The notes under the pieces were generated by a model. That model saw only the letters and a program-made list of their open reading frames with translations, was not told the origin of the DNA and searched no databases. From positions 1,472,731 to 1,536,730 of the forward strand of contig OX638293.1 of NCBI GenBank assembly GCA_951812335.1: a stretch of 64,000 bases of DNA. Reading direction: 5' to 3'. Made by a program: the position numbers and the translations under genes. Origin of the DNA: Rhodothermales bacterium (GTDB lineage: Bacteria; Bacteroidota; Rhodothermia; Rhodothermales; VXPQ01). Below, one piece after another: positions 31,496-39,405 of this stretch (positions are counted from its first letter, which is position 1; each line of letters opens with the position of its first letter).

Positions 31496-33895
31496 TCAAA
31501 CTGCGCATGCCTGAATGGGCCGGGTTAGTGTGTCTCCTTTGTCTTTCATGGCGCGCGCGGCTTCGACGATTGCGGGCCAGTGGGTAAGCAATTGTCCGTA
31601 GGCAAGTACTTGCCGTCGGAACGTAGCAAGGCGTTCTTCGGGGGTTCCCGGCAGGTCGATCGGAACGGAGAAATCGGGGTTTGCCGCCGATTCCCGGGCC
31701 GAGGTTAGGTAGCGCATCACGTCGTTTCGCCAGCAATCCGGCCTGTCGGGTTCGTTGCCGAGGCGGTGCTCTGCGCGGAGTACGTCGATGTGCATTGCCT
31801 GAAGGGCCAGTTTGCGCAGATAGTCCGAGAAGGCTTTTTCTGGAAGGCGGGCAAGCCGTACAAGCATGCCTCCGACCGTATGCAGCGCCTCGGCGCCCTC
31901 GCCGATCGGGTTCTGGTCCTGTGTCAGGGTGATATATATGAGCAGATCGTTGGCCCGCAGCGGGCGAAAGGCGATATCGTTTTTCGGATAGCTCCGCTTT
32001 TTGGGCGGCAGATGCCGCACGGCATACCGCGGGAGATATCCTCTGAAGGCGTTTGGGAGGCAGAGTCGGATCATGGTACCGAAGAGACCATCCTGGTTAC
32101 GCCCTTCGGGCATGAAGGGGGGGAGCAGCCGGCGGTTATCCAACCCCATGTTCATCCCCATGCAGAAAACGCCGTCGCTGATGGCAAGACGCGCGGATGT
32201 GCGTAGCATATGGCGCGAACGAAGAAGGTGAGGATAGCGATCCGGATCGCTCACAAGGCGATCCAGTATTTCGCCTCTCATAAACAATCGCTGCTGAAAA
32301 AACTCCATGCCGGTATCGCCGACGACCCCCGGAAAGGAAAGCACAACCTGCGCGTCGGGCATATCCAGCCGCTTCAGAAAGCCCCCCGAGACTTTCTCGA
32401 CGTCTACATCGCCGCCGTTTTGCGCAAACTGCGCAATGATCGGAGCCACTGGCCTCCCAAGAATCTGCTCGTGAACGCTCAACAGATCGACTTCCGCCGG
32501 CTTGACCGATCGGAGCGCCTCTTCAATATTCTCGAAGAACCGATATTCGTTCGATTCGGCGTCCGAGTTCAGAGAAAGACCGTCTTCGTATCGAGCGATT
32601 TCCATGGCGTCCCCCGTGGTGTCGTCATCGGCCTGCACGTGGATTTCTCCAGTCGTTGCCAACAGGAGCGCATTACGTGCCGCGCCGGCTGTTGGCCCCT
32701 TGTCGCCCGGCCCGAGAAGGGCAAAACGCACGACTTCTTCCGGGACGCTTGCATACGCAGCCAGTCTCGAACCGTATTCGGCAAGGCGCGTACGGTCCGC
32801 GTAGAGGATATTGGCGGCGCTCTGTCGATGCACATCTTTCAGGACATCCACGTTGCGGCGACGGGTTGCTTCTTCTTTCGAGTCGTCCATGACCATGCAT
32901 GCAATGTCCCGGCCCGTACGCCGTGCCTGATCGACATAACTCGCGACCGCGCGTTGCAGGCACTGGGGGCGGTTTGCCGTAGGGAGGCCGATCGAGGTAA
33001 TGGAGGTTTTCTCAGGCTCCTCATGGGCCAAGTCGCCGATTCGACGGTCGATATCCGTACGGATATATTCCTCGGAAACGAAGAAACCTCCCTGCACGAG
33101 TTCATTCAGCATATTTGTCCAGACCGTCCGGTCAATGCGTTCCATCGGTACGCCTGCCGTTGCACGGTCGAATCGCTCCATCAGCGAGGAGACATGGCCG
33201 GAAAGGTCGTTGAATGTCTCAAGAGAAAAGATCAGATTTGCAGGAAGGACAGGAAGTATTCGGGCAGCGCCGTTTCGCCTGGACCATACCAGAATTTCCT
33301 GGGAACTGAACGGCATGGCTTCTATGTCGAATGGCCTGAAGCGCCGGGAAGCGTTGCGTTTGGAAACGCCGTCCGTATATCCGACTTCGGTAGACGAGAG
33401 ACCGTTAGCGCTGTCTTCCGGGAGATCCAGTGACGCAGATGCAATCTGCGCCAGGCATTCGGGAAAGTCTTCCTTGGGCGTCAGGGTCAGCAGCGCCCGG
33501 GATGACCAGATACGTTCCATCTTGGCGGGCGAGCATTCCATGGCTCCCGCTGCGGGATCGCCTATGACGAAGCGGCCTTCCTCGAAACCGTAGCACACGA
33601 TGTATTCCGCCCTTTCGTCGCGCAGGACATGCAGGATGCAGGGAGCCTCCATCTGCTTCAGGTTGGGCAGGTCGGCTTCGTAGGCGCTTGCTGTGAAACC
33701 CATTGTCCCGGCTGCCCGATACAGGTCGAGCAGCGTAACTCCGTACTGCGTGGTCCTGGTCAGTCTGATCAAACGATCCATGACCATCTCGCCGCCGTGA
33801 TAGCGGATGATGGATGCGAGGCAGGCGGCGCCCGACTCGGTGGGCGTGCGCTGAAGGACGACAGTGGTCTTTGCCTGTTCCTTGATGGAAGCCAT
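31496..33895 (-). CDS. C39-like pseudoprotease fused to GT-A glycosyltransferase
   Basis: Large fusion (799 residues from ATG 33895; a GTG at 33919 is possible). Residues ~10-140 match peptidase C39 and resemble the C39 domain of the transporter at 37141-39405 ('ACLASIIRYHGG', 'GVTLLDLYRAAG', 'FVIGDPA'). The nucleophile is lost (DCG is ESG, Ser21) and the His position holds Glu97, while Gln15 and Asp113 remain, so it should bind but not cut a GG leader. Residues ~186-290 form an unassigned helical part, perhaps winged-helix/PqqD-like. From ~297 a family-2-like glycosyltransferase follows: 'SIGLPTANRPQCLQRAV', MDDS at 336-339, Q-A-DDD-T at 421-426, and 'GLDNRRLLPPFMPEGRNQDG'. The inferred job is glycosylation of the divergently encoded peptide. 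Confidence 0.75.
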   Translation of the reverse strand: MASIKEQAKTTVVLQRTPTESGAACLASIIRYHGGEMVMDRLIRLTRTTQYGVTLLDLYRAAGTMGFTASAYEADLPNLKQMEAPCILHVLRDERAEYIVCYGFEEGRFVIGDPAAGAMECSPAKMERIWSSRALLTLTPKEDFPECLAQIASASLDLPEDSANGLSSTEVGYTDGVSKRNASRRFRPFDIEAMPFSSQEILVWSRRNGAARILPVLPANLIFSLETFNDLSGHVSSLMERFDRATAGVPMERIDRTVWTNMLNELVQGGFFVSEEYIRTDIDRRIGDLAHEEPEKTSITSIGLPTANRPQCLQRAVASYVDQARRTGRDIACMVMDDSKEEATRRRNVDVLKDVHRQSAANILYADRTRLAEYGSRLAAYASVPEEVVRFALLGPGDKGPTAGAARNALLLATTGEIHVQADDDTTGDAMEIARYEDGLSLNSDAESNEYRFFENIEEALRSVKPAEVDLLSVHEQILGRPVAPIIAQFAQNGGDVDVEKVSGGFLKRLDMPDAQVVLSFPGVVGDTGMEFFQQRLFMRGEILDRLVSDPDRYPHLLRSRHMLRTSARLAISDGVFCMGMNMGLDNRRLLPPFMPEGRNQDGLFGTMIRLCLPNAFRGYLPRYAVRHLPPKKRSYPKNDIAFRPLRANDLLIYITLTQDQNPIGEGAEALHTVGGMLVRLARLPEKAFSDYLRKLALQAMHIDVLRAEHRLGNEPDRPDCWRNDVMRYLTSARESAANPDFSVPIDLPGTPEERLATFRRQVLAYGQLLTHWPAIVEAARAMKDKGDTLTRPIQACAV

Positions 33896-34032
33896 GGTTG
33901 TGGGGAGATTCAATTGCACCGTAGCGGTCGATCTGCCGGATCAGATCGGCTTCTAGCGTGTCGGTTCCGGAATTGTCCGGTCAAGACGCATTATTGGGAG
34001 AATATGCAATGCGCGGGGGTTGGGAGGATTGT

Positions 34033-34101: not shown

Positions 34102-34329
34102 ATGCAAGCGTTGACAATAGAGCGGATGGAAGCGATATATGGAGGAGGGTGGCAAGATCAATTACAGGCGGGACTGAGTGCGGTCTCTATGTTTTGCCAG
34201 ATAGCTATAACGGCTGGCTGGGCTACTATAAATCTTATGATGACATTGCCCGCGTGGAATGGTGTTGTGGGTGGTTTTTTGCTGGGATGTCTTGCGGCGA
34301 TAGGGCTTGATATCGTAATCAATTCTTGA
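34102..34329 (+). CDS. double-glycine leader precursor peptide (bacteriocin/RiPP)
   Basis: 75-residue peptide with a very strong ribosome site (GAAGGAGGTG, 6 bp before ATG). The leader MQALTIERMEAIYGG ends in a GG motif with the usual hydrophobic/acidic spacing (L4, I6, M9, I12), the substrate signature of C39 peptidases. The predicted mature part of 60 residues (G16-S75) is hydrophobic and Gly-rich, with two long hydrophobic stretches (SAVSMFCQIAITAGWATINLM and GVVGGFLLGCLAAIGL...), two Cys (32 and 63) that could form one disulfide, and several Ser/Thr as glycosylation candidates. It is flanked by the glycosyltransferase fusion gene (divergent) and followed by a strong terminator. Confidence 0.85.
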   Translation: MQALTIERMEAIYGGGWQDQLQAGLSAVSMFCQIAITAGWATINLMMTLPAWNGVVGGFLLGCLAAIGLDIVINS

Positions 34330-34350: not shown

Positions 34351-34406
34351 AAAAAAACAAGGGGGTTACGTTGGACAATTTCTAAATGTAACTCCCTTGT
34401 TTTTTT
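34351..34406 (+). terminator. strong intrinsic terminator after the precursor gene
   Basis: AAAAAAACAAGGGGGTTAC (34351-34369) pairs with GTAACTCCCTTGTTTTTTT (34388-34406), a stem of about 17 bp with one mismatch ending in a U-run. It lies 21 bp after the peptide stop. Such a terminator would let the small peptide gene be expressed much more strongly than the downstream transport genes. Confidence 0.88.
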
Positions 34407-34648
34407 AAATATGCACATTCAGATATGAATTTTTAAAGAACAAATTTATTTTTTTGAAATATATGGAATGGATAGGTAAAATATTTTGGAAATGGGAATT
34501 TGAATCATTTTCGTTTATTGAACAAAGAAAATATCATTAAGTACTATTTATTAAATACTTAGATCGTTACGCTATGTTAATTCATTACAGACGCTGAAAG
34601 AACTGGAACGATTCTTTACCCGGTCGGTGGCTGTCGGGGAATCTGGCT
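34407..34648. other. AT-rich gene-free stretch before the IS element
   Basis: Very low GC compared with the window. No start-to-stop gene is convincing. Just before the insertion, a frame without a start codon (VNSLQTLKELERFFTRSVAVGESG) runs into the element; if the element is removed the frame continues FILP and stops at a TGA overlapping the ATG of the membrane protein gene (CCATGA). This suggests a decayed upstream ORF formerly coupled to that gene. Confidence 0.45.
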
Positions 34649-34737
34649 GGGACTTATCAAGAATGCTTGACAGAATCGGTTTAAGCTCTTATTTTACAAA
34701 TAGTTATATAAAAGATCATCGAACAGGCTACGAGACT

Positions 34738-35676
34738 ATGTACAAGGCTCCGGGGAGATCGCAAAGAACGGGTATTACGCTGTTTCAGCTGTTGGGGATG
34801 TTCCCCGATGAGGAAGCGGCGGAGCGCTGGTTCGAAGCCCAGCGTTGGCCCACGGGCGAACGCGCTTGTCCGAAGTGCGGATGCATGAGAACCTCTCGTG
34901 TCGAGAGCCGCAAGCCGATGCCCTTCTGGTGCAGGGATTGCCGCTCGTACTTCTCTTTGAAAACTGGCACCGTCATGGCGGATTCGAACCTGTCGTTGCG
35001 TACCTGGGCGCTCGGTATATACCTTATGGCAACGAACTTGAAGGGCGTATCGAGTATGAAGCTGCATCGGGATTTGGGCGTGTCGCAACCGACCGCATGG
35101 TTCATGGCGCAACGCCTGCGCGAAGGCTTGCCGTTCGCAACCGAGAAGATGGAAGGGATCGTCGAAGTAGACGAGACCTACGTAGGTGGCAAGGAATCGA
35201 ACAAACATTTCCGCAAGAAACTCCATGTCGTGGGCGGAACCCAGGGCAAGGCAACGGTTATGGGGGCGAAAGAGCGCGGCGGCAAGGTCTTTGCTCGTCC
35301 TTTAGGCTGGGAGCCGGGCGAAACGCTTGCCGGATTCGTCCACGAGACCGTGGAGGCAGGCGAAACGGTCTACACGGACGATCATGGGGCCTACCGTAGC
35401 TTGAAAAACACGTACCGTCACGCAAGCGTGAAGCACTCCGTATCGGAGTACGTGAACGGACAGGCTCACACGAATGGTATCGAATCCTTTTGGGCGCTCC
35501 TGAAACGCGGCTACCACGGCACGTTCCACAAGATGAGCCGCAAACATCTGCATCGCTACGTTACCGAGTTTGCCGCGCGCCACAACTTGCGTAGCCTCGA
35601 CACGCTGGAACAGATGCAGGTCATGGCCCGGAGTATGGAAGGGCGTCGTATCAAGTACCGCGAGTTGATTGTATGA
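34738..35676 (+). CDS. IS1595-family transposase (ISXO2-like DDE domain)
   Basis: 312 residues from ATG 34738; the longer frame from 34627 starts outside the element. N-terminal zinc ribbon: 'RACPKCGCMRTSRVESRKPMPFWCRDC' (C-x2-C...C-x2-C, about residues 42-69). Helix-turn-helix-like part 'SMKLHRDLGVSQPTAWFMAQRLR'. The ISXO2-like DDE/N domain starts with 'GIVEVDETYVGGK' (first Asp), then 'TVYTDDHGAYRSL' (second) and 'HTNGIESFWALLKRGYHGT' (N and E). It should be active, since ends and reading frame are intact. Confidence 0.95.
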   Translation: MYKAPGRSQRTGITLFQLLGMFPDEEAAERWFEAQRWPTGERACPKCGCMRTSRVESRKPMPFWCRDCRSYFSLKTGTVMADSNLSLRTWALGIYLMATNLKGVSSMKLHRDLGVSQPTAWFMAQRLREGLPFATEKMEGIVEVDETYVGGKESNKHFRKKLHVVGGTQGKATVMGAKERGGKVFARPLGWEPGETLAGFVHETVEAGETVYTDDHGAYRSLKNTYRHASVKHSVSEYVNGQAHTNGIESFWALLKRGYHGTFHKMSRKHLHRYVTEFAARHNLRSLDTLEQMQVMARSMEGRRIKYRELIV

Positions 35677-35704
35677 CAGCAAGGGACAAAGGCTTGCAAG
35701 CCCC

Positions 35705-35875
35705 ATGATTTTCAAGCGCAGCAACCGTAAACCTCGAGAGGATCGCCCGAAGGACGGCGAGGCCGTCGTAACGATGGCCGATATGGAGAACATTGCCCGT
35801 TCAATCTTCGATCAGGCCGATCGCAAGGCGGGCATCAAGACCGACCGATCCAGGGCGGCTGTCAAGCATTCTTGA
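35705..35875 (+). CDS. small passenger protein of the IS1595 element
   Basis: 56 residues, MIFKRSNRKPREDRPKDGEA..., highly charged, ending in the right inverted repeat of the element (stop at 35873-35875). It follows the transposase by 28 bp in the same direction and lies wholly inside the IS, so it moves with it. Some IS1595 subgroups carry short accessory ORFs in this place; a function is not known. It is not part of the peptide cluster. Confidence 0.55.
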   Translation: MIFKRSNRKPREDRPKDGEAVVTMADMENIARSIFDQADRKAGIKTDRSRAAVKHS

Positions 35876-35901
35876 TAAGTCCCATCTGGCTTCATACTCC
35901 C

Positions 35902-36585
35902 ATGAAGATGACAAGAACGGTATCCCTCTCCAAGGACACGACACAGTGGCGCATATACGGCTGGCCCGTATTTCTAATCGTCTGCGGCCTTTATCTGATA
36001 TTTACGATCATTGCAGACTGGTTCGTTCTGACCGAAGTAGTCTATTATCGAAGCCTTTCCGAGCAACTTTCCGCAGATCGCATTGCATCCTATCTATCGC
36101 TGCGCGAACAGTATGCGTGGATCGGCTATCTCGCTTTACCTCTCATGATTGCCGCCAAGAGCGCCTATACGGCTTTTTTTCTTGCAGCCGGCGCCGTGAT
36201 CGCCGAGCGCGAAGACGTTCGTTTCAAACAGTGTTTCAAGGCGGCGGTTCTTTGCGAAGGGGTTTTCGTTGCGGGGCTGGGAATACGTCTGCTTTGGGCT
36301 GGCGTCGTAGGTATTGAGACCCTGGAGGATTATACAAGTATGCAGATTCTTTCGCTGATGAGCCTGTTTAAGGGAGTGGATATCGAACCGTGGCTGGTAT
36401 CTCCGCTCCAAACAATCAATGTATTTGAAGTTCTTTACTGTATATCGCTCTGTTGGGTCATGGCTCTCCAGAGCAATCGGTCCTTGGGCGAGAGCGCCCG
36501 GTTCGTTCTGCCAGCTTACGGCATGGGTCTGCTGCTATGGCTCTCCATAGTCATGTTCCTTGCTCTTCAATTCAATCCCGCATAA
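35902..36585 (+). CDS. five-segment membrane protein of the peptide cluster
   Basis: 227 residues, unknown family. About five membrane spans: 18-40 (VFLIVCGLYLIFTIIADWFVL), 70-100 (IGYLALPLMIAAKSAYTAFFLAAGAVI), 112-135 (AAVLCEGVFVAGLGIRLLWAGVV), 165-190 and 200-224. Polytopic proteins in this place in bacteriocin operons are often immunity proteins or transport helpers, so self-immunity is the first guess. The ATG (with a second ATG two codons later) follows the right IS target duplication by 10 bp, so its original promoter or coupled upstream ORF has been separated by the insertion. The thioredoxin-like gene starts 7 bp after its stop. Confidence 0.75.
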   Translation: MKMTRTVSLSKDTTQWRIYGWPVFLIVCGLYLIFTIIADWFVLTEVVYYRSLSEQLSADRIASYLSLREQYAWIGYLALPLMIAAKSAYTAFFLAAGAVIAEREDVRFKQCFKAAVLCEGVFVAGLGIRLLWAGVVGIETLEDYTSMQILSLMSLFKGVDIEPWLVSPLQTINVFEVLYCISLCWVMALQSNRSLGESARFVLPAYGMGLLLWLSIVMFLALQFNPA

Positions 36586-36592
36586 GAATATC

Positions 36593-37144
36593 ATGAAGCG
36601 CTATTTGACTATCGTCGCACTGGTCGTCATGCTGGTTTTCGTTGTTCTGCTGGGTGCGCGTATCCGCGAGGGGGTGAAGGCCCGCCGCGCCATCGTTGCC
36701 CGGGTTGCAACGCTTCCGAAATTCGAGTTGGCGACGCTGGAGGATCAGCGTTTCGGAAGTGAGAACCTTCCGACGGACCAGCCTGTTATCCTCGTGTACT
36801 TCACAACGGTTTGTCCCTATTGTCAATCGGAGTTGAGCAGTATCCGGCAGCACGGCGAGCTCAAAAAGAAGGGATCGTTTCTGATGATTTCGCGCGAATC
36901 TCTCGATGTGCTACGGCAATATCAGGAGACCGAAGAGCTGGATAAGGAGCAATCCATGCCCATTTTATGGGACAGTCTTGGCGCGGTTCACAGGCAATTC
37001 GGCGTTTCGATCGTGCCCAGCACCTTCATCTACGGAACCGACCGCAGGCTTGTGAAGAAGTTCACCGGAGAAACAAGCGCAGACGTTATCTATCGCGTGC
37101 TCATGGAGGCTGTTGCTGACCAGACCTCCGCAGAAGTTGAATGA
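36593..37144 (+). CDS. membrane-anchored thioredoxin-like protein
   Basis: 183 residues. An N-terminal anchor (YLTIVALVVMLVFVVLLGA, residues 4-22) puts a TlpA/redoxin-like domain in the periplasm: 'PVILVYFTTVCPYCQSELSSI' with C-P-Y-C at 74-77 and a cis-Pro loop 'GVSIVPSTFIYGTD'. It could oxidise or isomerise the Cys32-Cys63 pair of the exported peptide, as BdbA/BdbB-type oxidoreductases do in sublancin-like systems, or keep the transporter protease cysteine reduced. Its stop overlaps the ATG of the transporter gene (ATGA at 37141-37144), so translation is coupled. Confidence 0.85.
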   Translation: MKRYLTIVALVVMLVFVVLLGARIREGVKARRAIVARVATLPKFELATLEDQRFGSENLPTDQPVILVYFTTVCPYCQSELSSIRQHGELKKKGSFLMISRESLDVLRQYQETEELDKEQSMPILWDSLGAVHRQFGVSIVPSTFIYGTDRRLVKKFTGETSADVIYRVLMEAVADQTSAEVE

Positions 37145-39405
37145 TATTCCCTGGGCAGTGCAGCATTGAAGTGAAGAAATTTATTAAGCATATAATACCC
37201 AAAGCGTTTCGTACGGTGGAAAAAACCGCTGCGAAGACGCTTGTTCGGCAGCAGGATCAATCGGATTGCGGCGTTGCTTGTCTGGCGTCGATTATCCGTT
37301 ATTACGGCGGGCAGGCGAATCTGGAGCGCTTGCGCGAATTAAGCGGCACAAGCCGCCAGGGCACGACCCTGCTTGGGCTATATCAAGCCGCGCAGCAGTT
37401 CCATCTGCAAGCCGGAGCGTACGAAGGCGACATCGAACATTTGAAAGAGCTCGCCTCCCCCGCCATTCTCCATGTCGTGAAGGATGAGCATCTTCTGCAT
37501 TACATGGTTTGCTACGCCTACGACAACGGTCGCTTCGTAATCGGCGATCCGGCTTCCGAAGTAAGTAGCTATACCCCTGAAGAAGTGGACGAGATATGGC
37601 AGTCGAAGTCGCTTCTGTTGCTTGAGGTCGACGAAGGCTTCGCGTACAAGAAGCAAGTCCGGAAGGATCAGTGGCGATGGATCAGGCGACTCGTGGAAAA
37701 CGATCTGCATATACTTGCTCTCGCTCTCGTTCTGGGTGTTTTTATAGCGCTTCTTGGCCTTTCGACGGCTCTTTTTTCCCAGATGCTTATCGACCGTATA
37801 CTTCCGGAGAAAAGAATTGCGGAACTTGCAGTCGGGCTCGTTCTACTGGCGGTATTGTTATGGTCCCGAAGCGTTCTGTCGTATGTGCGGGGACGATTTC
37901 TGCTTACCCAGAGCCGCGATTTCAACAATCGGGTTATCGGACGCTTTTTCGGTTCTCTGGTGCATTTGCCCCAGCCGTTCTTTTACACCCGTAAAACGGG
38001 GGACCTCATCGCTCGCATGAACGACACGCATCGCCTGCAGGGGGCCGTTACCCATATTTTGGGCAACGTGATGATCGACGCTCTGGTTCTTATCGTGTCG
38101 GCCGTTTTCGTGTTCATCTACTCCGTACCGCTTGGCTTGCTTTGCGTGCTCAGCTTACCGCTGATAGGGATTCTTGCCTGGATCTATCACCGCCCCATCG
38201 TGAAGGGACAGCAAGGAGTTATGGCAGCCCATGCAATGAACGAAAGCAACTATGTCGACGCCATCCAGGGCATGGAAACGATCAAGACCGGGAACAAGGA
38301 GAATGCCTTTGCCAATCTGACGAAGACGATCTACGGATTCTTTCAGGATCGGATATTCGGGCTGGGCCGGATCGGCATTCGTTTCAACATCTGGGCGGGA
38401 TTCATTTCCGTGGCGTTGTCCGTGGCCGTGCTTGGTTATAGCGCTATGCTGGTGCTGGACGATCGTTTACAGATCGGACAGCTTGTGGCCGTATTGCAGA
38501 TGTCCGGGATGCTTATCCCGGCTGCGATGAGTCTGGCCCTCACGAATCTCCGATTACAGGAAGCCCGGGTCGCTTTCGAGCGAATGTACGAGTTCGCTTC
38601 TCTTAAACCGGAATACGAGCAGGAGCCGGACAGTTCGGGAGCCGTGATCGAAGCCTTCGAGAATCTGGAGGTCCGCGGCGTGTCTTTCCGTTTCGCGGGC
38701 CGCTCGGAACTGCTCAGGGACATATCCTTTCGCGTGAAGCGCGGCGAAATGATTGCGATCCTCGGAGAAAGCGGGTGCGGCAAAACCACGATGCTGCATA
38801 TCCTGCAGCGCTTTCACCAGCCCGGCCAGGGGGATATCGTTGTCAACGACGCGGCGGCGGCGTGGGACGAAATCTCGACGAATGCCTGGCGCAGCCTGCT
38901 CGGCGTCGTTCCCCAACAGGTCAAGATGTTCAATGGTTCGCTGATCGAGAATATCTGTCTGGGCAATATCGTCGAGGAGGCGGAAGCGGTGATCGATTTT
39001 TGCAAACGGCGCGGGTTCGATCGGTTTTTTTCTGCGTTTCCGCAGGGATACATAACGCTTCTTGGCGAAGAAGGGATCAACATTTCAGGCGGACAACGGC
39101 AACTGGTTGCATTGGCCCGGGCGATGTATCAACAGCCTCAACTGCTTTTGCTCGACGAGGCCACGGCGGCCATGGATCGAGAGACCGAACGCCTTATTCT
39201 GACTATGCTCCGGGATATGCGAAAGGAAATCGGCGTCGTGCTGGTGACCCATCGCGCTCAGGTTGCCCGGTACGCCGATCGTATCTACATTCTTGAAAAT
39301 GGCCGGGTAACGTCAGCCGGCAAGCCTGAGGAGTTGGCTGTGGGCGACAACCTTTTTGCACGGTCGCTTATGGACTTCACCCTTATGTCGCATAATGCCG
39401 GGTAG
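37141..39405 (+). CDS. peptidase-containing ABC transporter (C39, SunT/LahT type)
   Basis: Exports and matures GG-leader peptides. 754 residues in three parts. C39 peptidase domain (about 30-165) with complete triad: Gln37 (oxyanion), Cys43 in SDCGVACLAS, His120 in LLHYMVCY, Asp136 in IGDPA. A six-helix transmembrane domain (about 180-470) begins 'HILALALVLGVFIALLGLST'. The nucleotide-binding domain has Walker A GESGCGKT (~542-549), signature ISGGQRQ (~650) and Walker B LLLLDEAT (~668). The intact protease contrasts with the dead C39 domain in the glycosyltransferase fusion. It ends the co-directional operon and is convergent with the AraC-like gene. Confidence 0.95.
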   Translation: MIFPGQCSIEVKKFIKHIIPKAFRTVEKTAAKTLVRQQDQSDCGVACLASIIRYYGGQANLERLRELSGTSRQGTTLLGLYQAAQQFHLQAGAYEGDIEHLKELASPAILHVVKDEHLLHYMVCYAYDNGRFVIGDPASEVSSYTPEEVDEIWQSKSLLLLEVDEGFAYKKQVRKDQWRWIRRLVENDLHILALALVLGVFIALLGLSTALFSQMLIDRILPEKRIAELAVGLVLLAVLLWSRSVLSYVRGRFLLTQSRDFNNRVIGRFFGSLVHLPQPFFYTRKTGDLIARMNDTHRLQGAVTHILGNVMIDALVLIVSAVFVFIYSVPLGLLCVLSLPLIGILAWIYHRPIVKGQQGVMAAHAMNESNYVDAIQGMETIKTGNKENAFANLTKTIYGFFQDRIFGLGRIGIRFNIWAGFISVALSVAVLGYSAMLVLDDRLQIGQLVAVLQMSGMLIPAAMSLALTNLRLQEARVAFERMYEFASLKPEYEQEPDSSGAVIEAFENLEVRGVSFRFAGRSELLRDISFRVKRGEMIAILGESGCGKTTMLHILQRFHQPGQGDIVVNDAAAAWDEISTNAWRSLLGVVPQQVKMFNGSLIENICLGNIVEEAEAVIDFCKRRGFDRFFSAFPQGYITLLGEEGINISGGQRQLVALARAMYQQPQLLLLDEATAAMDRETERLILTMLRDMRKEIGVVLVTHRAQVARYADRIYILENGRVTSAGKPEELAVGDNLFARSLMDFTLMSHNAG

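Follow-up and report, generated by a model that had tools for sequence, protein, structure and literature searches.

The locus analysed here lies on contig OX638293.1 of a Rhodothermales bacterium (GCA_951812335.1), within a stretch of 64,000 nt that is referred to below as the window. A gene on its reverse strand joins a degenerate Peptidase C39 domain to a middle domain and a predicted glycosyltransferase (hereafter the fusion), and the neighbouring genes on the forward strand encode a double-Gly precursor and proteins related to thiol-disulfide exchange and peptide export (Table 1).

Table 1. Genes, domains and sequence features of the fusion locus (positions refer to the window)
Feature	Position	Strand	Basis
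Fusion gene: degenerate C39, middle domain and GT2-like glycosyltransferase	31496..33895	-	single open frame, 799 aa
Degenerate Peptidase C39 domain, aa 10-141	33473..33868	-	Pfam; alignments to PCAT1/ComA and exporters
Ser21 codon, in place of the catalytic Cys	33833..33835	-	alignment to PCAT1 (Cys21) and exporters
Glu97 codon, in place of the catalytic His	33605..33607	-	alignment to PCAT1 and exporters
Middle domain, aa ~182-290	33026..33352	-	also present in C39-less homologues
GT-A/GT2-like glycosyltransferase, aa 297-799	31499..33007	-	Pfam below threshold; profile-profile comparison; weak model
Invariant DDD motif, aa 423-425, presumed metal/nucleotide-sugar DxD site	32621..32629	-	17/17 homologues
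Double-Gly precursor, 75 aa: leader MQALTIERMEAIYGG, 60-aa core with 2 Cys, C-terminal Ser	34102..34329	+	AAGGAGG before ATG
Terminator-like inverted repeat with T run, directly after the precursor	34351..34406	+	sequence repeat
IS1595-family element, 35-nt terminal inverted repeats	34639..35893	+	Pfam DDE_Tnp_IS1595 5.6e-39
Membrane protein, unknown family, conserved in clusters	35902..36585	+	28-72% identity to relatives' cluster copies
TlpA/ResA-like thiol-disulfide oxidoreductase	36560..37144	+	Pfam AhpC-TSA 6.4e-14; ResA 2.9e-11
Intact C39-ABC exporter (PCAT), Cys and His present	37141..39405	+	Pfam C39 3.2e-33, ABC_tran 4e-28; alignment

The fusion gene starts at the ATG at position 33895; the alternative GTG at 33919 would give a protein of 807 aa. 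The 799-aa product lacks an ABC domain according to Pfam, so that the architecture of a PCAT/HlyB-type exporter is not met. That a C39 domain and a glycosyltransferase are fused in one gene, as claimed in the original prediction, agrees with the intact frame and with a match to Pfam PF03412 over aa 10-141 (E = 1.6e-24, profile positions 2-131 of 133).

The single precursor of the window resembles in sequence the P1 family of the related clusters described below, and its leader displays Ile at -4, Met at -7 and Leu at -12, positions shared with the precursors of the relatives. Precursors of the P2 and P3 families were not detected near the fusion; the relatives have two or three precursors. The IS1595 element, which is not part of the proposed mechanism, sits between the precursor and the export genes, just upstream of the gene for the membrane protein (for which no Pfam match was obtained). 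This interruption, together with the presence of only one precursor, suggests that the copy in the window may be impaired and may function more poorly than its counterparts in the relatives.

IS elements and gene remnants abound at the locus. A second cluster was detected in the same genome at ~1.297 Mb (L038, 8304-9209), in which an internal deletion has reduced the fusion to 301 aa; it adjoins intact P2 and P3 precursors as well as export genes. C-terminal fragments with 75-92% identity to the fusion of the window, located in its own genome and in two others (L039, 6736-7062; L036, 272-592; L041, 906-1184), represent remnants of lost copies.

The degenerate C39 domain

The PDB matches to the N-terminus of the fusion are the C39 domains of PCAT1 (4.3e-15), ComA and LahT. 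Alignment to PCAT1 reproduced exactly what had been predicted for the active site, namely the replacement of the nucleophilic Cys by Ser21 and of the His by Glu97 along with the retention of Gln15 (the oxyanion Gln) and Asp113 (the position of the catalytic Asp). As both Cys and His are missing, also in the relatives, the domain is regarded as a pseudo-peptidase and not as a peptidase. The predicted likeness to the C39 domain of the exporter encoded in the window, through the segments ACLASIIRY, LxLYxAA and FVIGDPA, was likewise confirmed when both domains were aligned, and the two share ~45% identity. In the best explanation, the pseudo-peptidase is related to exporters of the C39-ABC type from the same genus. 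A scan of viral contigs with the C39 domain gave no match.

Two residues of PCAT1, A55 and I59, hold the leader helix and face leader positions -7 and -12 (PMC6959990), and in LahT positions -4, -7 and -12 of the leader are used in recognition (PMC6363468). The residues of the fusion aligned to A55 and I59 are Leu55 and Tyr59; the exporter of the window has the same Leu/Tyr pair and the fusions of the relatives have Met/Tyr. Thus, with the catalytic Cys and His absent and positions 55 and 59 still apolar or aromatic, it appears that the residues for cutting were lost and those for gripping were kept.

Comparison between relatives yielded dN/dS values of 0.085-0.18 for the dead C39 domain vs 0.17-0.22 for the glycosyltransferase domain. 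The C39 domain is therefore under purifying selection in the relatives and, since its values are no higher than those of the transferase, it has evidently been kept for a function. These ratios rule out that the architecture as a whole is a pseudogene, which cannot be ruled out for the IS-disturbed copy of the window.

The GT2-like and middle domains

The prediction that the second half of the fusion is a glycosyltransferase finds only weak support in the single sequence and is upheld by comparison of family profiles and by motifs. The Pfam match to GT2 (PF00535) covers aa 301-346 (E = 0.0017) and, with 18.8 bits vs a cut-off of 23.3, misses the threshold. Profile-profile comparison (hhalign) against eight genuine GT2 proteins encoded in the same genome gave a score of 41.4 (P = 2.1e-5), the best score among 60 column shuffles used as control being 15.8. 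In an alignment of 17 homologues drawn from same-genus, same-class and viral sequences, a region of ~500 residues contains invariant GxxRN, DDD, LG and GxxGD motifs and two invariant Arg. Some relatives match DUF6271 (PF19787) weakly (6.7e-5). Chance resemblance was ruled out by the E-values and by conservation.

Structure prediction contributed little. AlphaFold gave a useless model of the whole fusion without an alignment (pLDDT 35), and for the glycosyltransferase domain with a two-homologue alignment it reached a pLDDT of 43, with only the first ~100 residues usable (about 60-76). Most of the best structural matches of this low-confidence model were to glycosyltransferases of the GT-A type (Z 5-6.7 across ~100 residues), which is supportive only. 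SunS and ThuS were absent among the structural neighbours listed for it, and no SunS, ThuS or GccA chain was found among the PDB profile matches up to E = 10, the GT2 homology itself being at the limit of detection. Altogether, a divergent GT-A/GT2-like glycosyltransferase is the best reading of this half of the protein as far as can be judged from sequence.

The middle domain is a real conserved domain, present in nearly all members of the family, including those without C39, and has no Pfam match. Its global hhalign score against PqqD was 12.4, and none of 100 shuffles exceeded 10.0 (P ~0.02); the domain is possibly a winged helix of the PqqD/RRE type, but a similarity this weak cannot be relied on. 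It neither demonstrates nor rules out the further recognition domain that the original prediction placed at aa ~186-290. The peptide might be recognised by the middle domain itself, in which case the C39 domain would be auxiliary.

Related clusters and the ends of their precursors

The three-part architecture was also found in proteins of 730-739 aa from three genomes of the same genus (G001, G002 and G004), and a partial fusion lies at a contig end in a further one (G005). Catalytic Cys and His are absent from all the complete fusions of these relatives. The gene order P3, fusion, P1, P2, membrane protein, TlpA-like protein and C39-ABC exporter is that of the relatives, with cluster conservation seen in G001, G002, G004 and G005. 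The distribution of the fusion is thus restricted to one genus, in a small sample; a scan of genome contigs gave one partial as the sole relative, and no relative of the transferase was found in plasmid and phage records.

Leaders of the P2 family carry Val or Ile at -4, Met at -7 and Leu at -12, and those of P1 keep Met-7 and Leu-12 in two genomes. In the remaining P1 leaders and in all P3 leaders the Met and Leu are found at -6 and -11, that is, shifted by one residue if cleavage occurs at the first GG. Like LahT/PCAT1 substrates (PMC6363468), the precursor of the window and those of the P2 family have apolar residues at leader positions -4, -7 and -12.

Homologues consisting of the middle and glycosyltransferase domains without C39 occur in the same genus (L027, L028, L029) and beyond it (L033, L100, L105, L110, L111). 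Neither a C39 domain nor a C39 exporter was found near them in the stretches read, some of which belong to short contigs, and several adjoin short peptides with a signal peptide. The C39 domain thus appears to track precursors with a double-Gly leader, being present with these and missing where precursors lack such a leader. In the tree of the glycosyltransferase and middle domains, the fusion of the window groups with the C39-less L027, L028 and L029 (support 100/100), and a single clade of all fusions was rejected (p-AU 0.0003). The C39 tree is undecided on such a clade (p 0.46), and the C39 domains of the relatives are very divergent (branch length 1.8). Either the C39 domain was gained twice, or it was gained once and then lost with a change of leader type; both histories are inferred from these trees.

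All 14 double-Gly precursors from the fusion clusters, which belong to three sequence families, end in Ser, preceded by variable residues (VINS, FAGS, ASRS, LSTS, LCGS, LCAS, KFCS and RFCS). The same holds for four peptides with a signal peptide that are encoded next to L028 and L029, giving 18/18 in four sequence families (14 double-Gly and four signal-peptide). Among ORFs of the same genus a C-terminal Ser was found in 7/134 (5%), and the probability that four independent families all end in Ser by chance is ~7e-6, with the reservation that the test was made on a pattern already noticed. The pattern is not valid for the whole transferase family, as the peptides beside L027 end in Gly and some beside distant homologues in Cys. 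Considering its frequency relative to the background, the C-terminal Ser is likely the acceptor or part of a recognition motif. This suggests a putative site of glycosylation, or a portion of the acceptor motif; both the site and the transfer of a sugar to it are inferred.

The signal-peptide peptides mentioned above occur as pairs that flank the C39-less transferase genes (L028, 5756-6160 and 11089-11439; L029, 2434-2751 and 5566-5976); all four end in ..RAS and have a common N-terminal part and tails that are not shared. Other members of the family were observed in different surroundings. Two viral contigs encode transferase homologues with 27-33% identity (L068, 4995-6464; L069, 2473-3888), one located amid putative tail genes and the other between terminase-like and portal-like genes, and these phage members of a rare transferase family have no evident peptide partner. 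In a 1235-aa ORF (L035, G027:C26) the same domain stands behind FkbH-like HAD and acyl-carrier-like domains, and in two further loci (L105, 446-3271; L108, 9585-12074) it is followed by an apparent second GT-A-type domain, in both cases as judged by eye. A Cys-rich peptide, a propeller-like lipoprotein and a thioredoxin-like protein are encoded near L108.

A possible leader guide and known systems

It can be hypothesized that the fusion is a peptide glycosyltransferase guided by an exporter-derived pseudo-peptidase that serves as its leader-recognition module. We consider this interpretation probable, because the C39 domain is confined to enzymes beside double-Gly precursors and its contact positions are apolar or aromatic. 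In the proposed mechanism, the dead C39 groove would grip the helix of the double-Gly leader without cutting it, Leu55 and Tyr59 lying against positions -7 and -12, and this grip would keep the core in place at the GT2-like domain. The latter may transfer a sugar from a nucleotide-sugar by means of its DDD site, perhaps onto the C-terminal Ser. The leader would then pass to the homologous groove of the intact exporter to be cut after the GG, followed by export of the peptide, and the TlpA-like protein would handle the Cys pairs. The leader-guided glycosyltransferase of the original prediction is thus supported by conservation in the genus, purifying selection, the kept groove positions and the co-occurrence with double-Gly precursors; leader binding, glycosyl transfer, the acceptor site and the order of events are inferred. 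Counting against this explanation are the lack of a model of the complex with the leader, the low pLDDT (43) of the glycosyltransferase model, the match of this domain below the cut-off, the shifted leaders, a possible recognition role of the middle domain, the small sample from a single genus and the interrupted cluster of the window.

The dead C39 domain might instead dock the transferase to the exporter or to its C39 partner and in this way couple modification to secretion, the peptide being read by the middle domain. The peptidase domain of PCAT1 packs on the transporter core (PMC6959990), and the middle domain, weakly PqqD/RRE-like, accompanies nearly all family members whether or not they have a C39 domain. 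Docking alone, however, would not demand that apolar or aromatic residues be kept where the leader is contacted, and the C39 domain is restricted to enzymes with double-Gly precursors, even though peptides of either kind need export; this role seems unlikely.

The acceptor may also be something other than a peptide, the GT-A-fold half acting as a nucleotidyltransferase or as a lipid or polysaccharide transferase for immunity or export. Homology to known GT2 enzymes is remote, and the homologues in two phage contigs and beside an FkbH-ACP pair indicate that acceptors differ across the family, but many bacterial homologues adjoin small Cys-containing exported peptides and the fusion to a leader-binding domain points to a peptide acceptor, so that a function of this sort is rated very unlikely. 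Even less credit is given to an accidental fusion, whose C39 domain would be a non-functional leftover on a transferase that is general or finds its substrate otherwise: the missing catalytic residues, the long C39 branch of the relatives and a locus full of IS elements and gene remnants would fit such an origin, which is contradicted by C39 dN/dS values as low as those of the transferase, by the conservation of the clusters and by the presence of the domain in two separated lineages of the transferase tree.

A search of the open-access literature revealed no description of a C39-glycosyltransferase fusion or of a C39-derived domain on a tailoring enzyme. The fusion, guided by its pseudo-peptidase as favoured above, appears to be a RiPP enzyme whose leader guide is of a new kind, with leader binding inferred. 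In many of the known RiPP enzymes that are guided by a leader, recognition depends on an RRE or on a binding surface built into the enzyme, and double-Gly is the commonest leader type. Whether the fusion represents a second way of guiding RiPP enzymes, independent of RREs, shares its leader with the exporter through homologous grooves and gives rise to a new group of two- or three-peptide bacteriocin-like products glycosylated at the invariant C-terminal Ser is, in our judgement, evenly poised. A C39 pseudo-peptidase acting as guide would explain how a modifying enzyme and an exporter share one double-Gly leader and would provide a portable docking module for steering glycosyltransferases to chosen peptides. 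A C39 domain without Cys on a non-transporter would offer a handle to search for more systems, and the C-terminal Ser pattern offers a concrete, testable modification site.

Class II siderophore microcins of the MccE492 type have a double-Gly leader, a C39 exporter, a Gly/Ala-rich core and a modified C-terminal Ser. They resemble the fusion clusters in the leader, exporter, core and terminal Ser, but have other transferases and no C39 fusion, and their Ser-Gly-rich tail is absent from the precursors described here. Glycocin clusters include a thiol-disulfide enzyme. Those of sublancin, glycocin F, enterocin F4-9 and thermoglycocin also contain a precursor, a GT2-type transferase and a C39-ABC exporter (PMC12457901, PMC8620827). 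The fusion clusters likewise combine these four components; unlike the fusion, the glycocin transferases described in those papers carry no C39 domain, the glycosyltransferase half of the fusion is so divergent that a relationship to SunS/ThuS escapes detection, and the cores are unlike glycocin cores.

The C39-like domain of HlyB has the C39 fold without proteolytic activity, and the role proposed for it is to hold the substrate (PMC6363468), similar to the role presumed for the pseudo-peptidase. It is located on an ABC exporter, whereas the C39 domain of the fusion is on a modifying enzyme, has lost both Cys and His and, unlike that of HlyB, has an N-terminal double-Gly leader as presumed ligand. 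Lastly, fusions of RRE (PqqD-like) domains to RiPP enzymes, PF00535 glycosyltransferases among them, have been noted bioinformatically (PMC12710340). Such proteins follow the same logic, with a leader-recognition domain on a glycosyltransferase, but the guide of the fusion would be a peptidase domain of the exporter type, unrelated to the winged helix of RREs.
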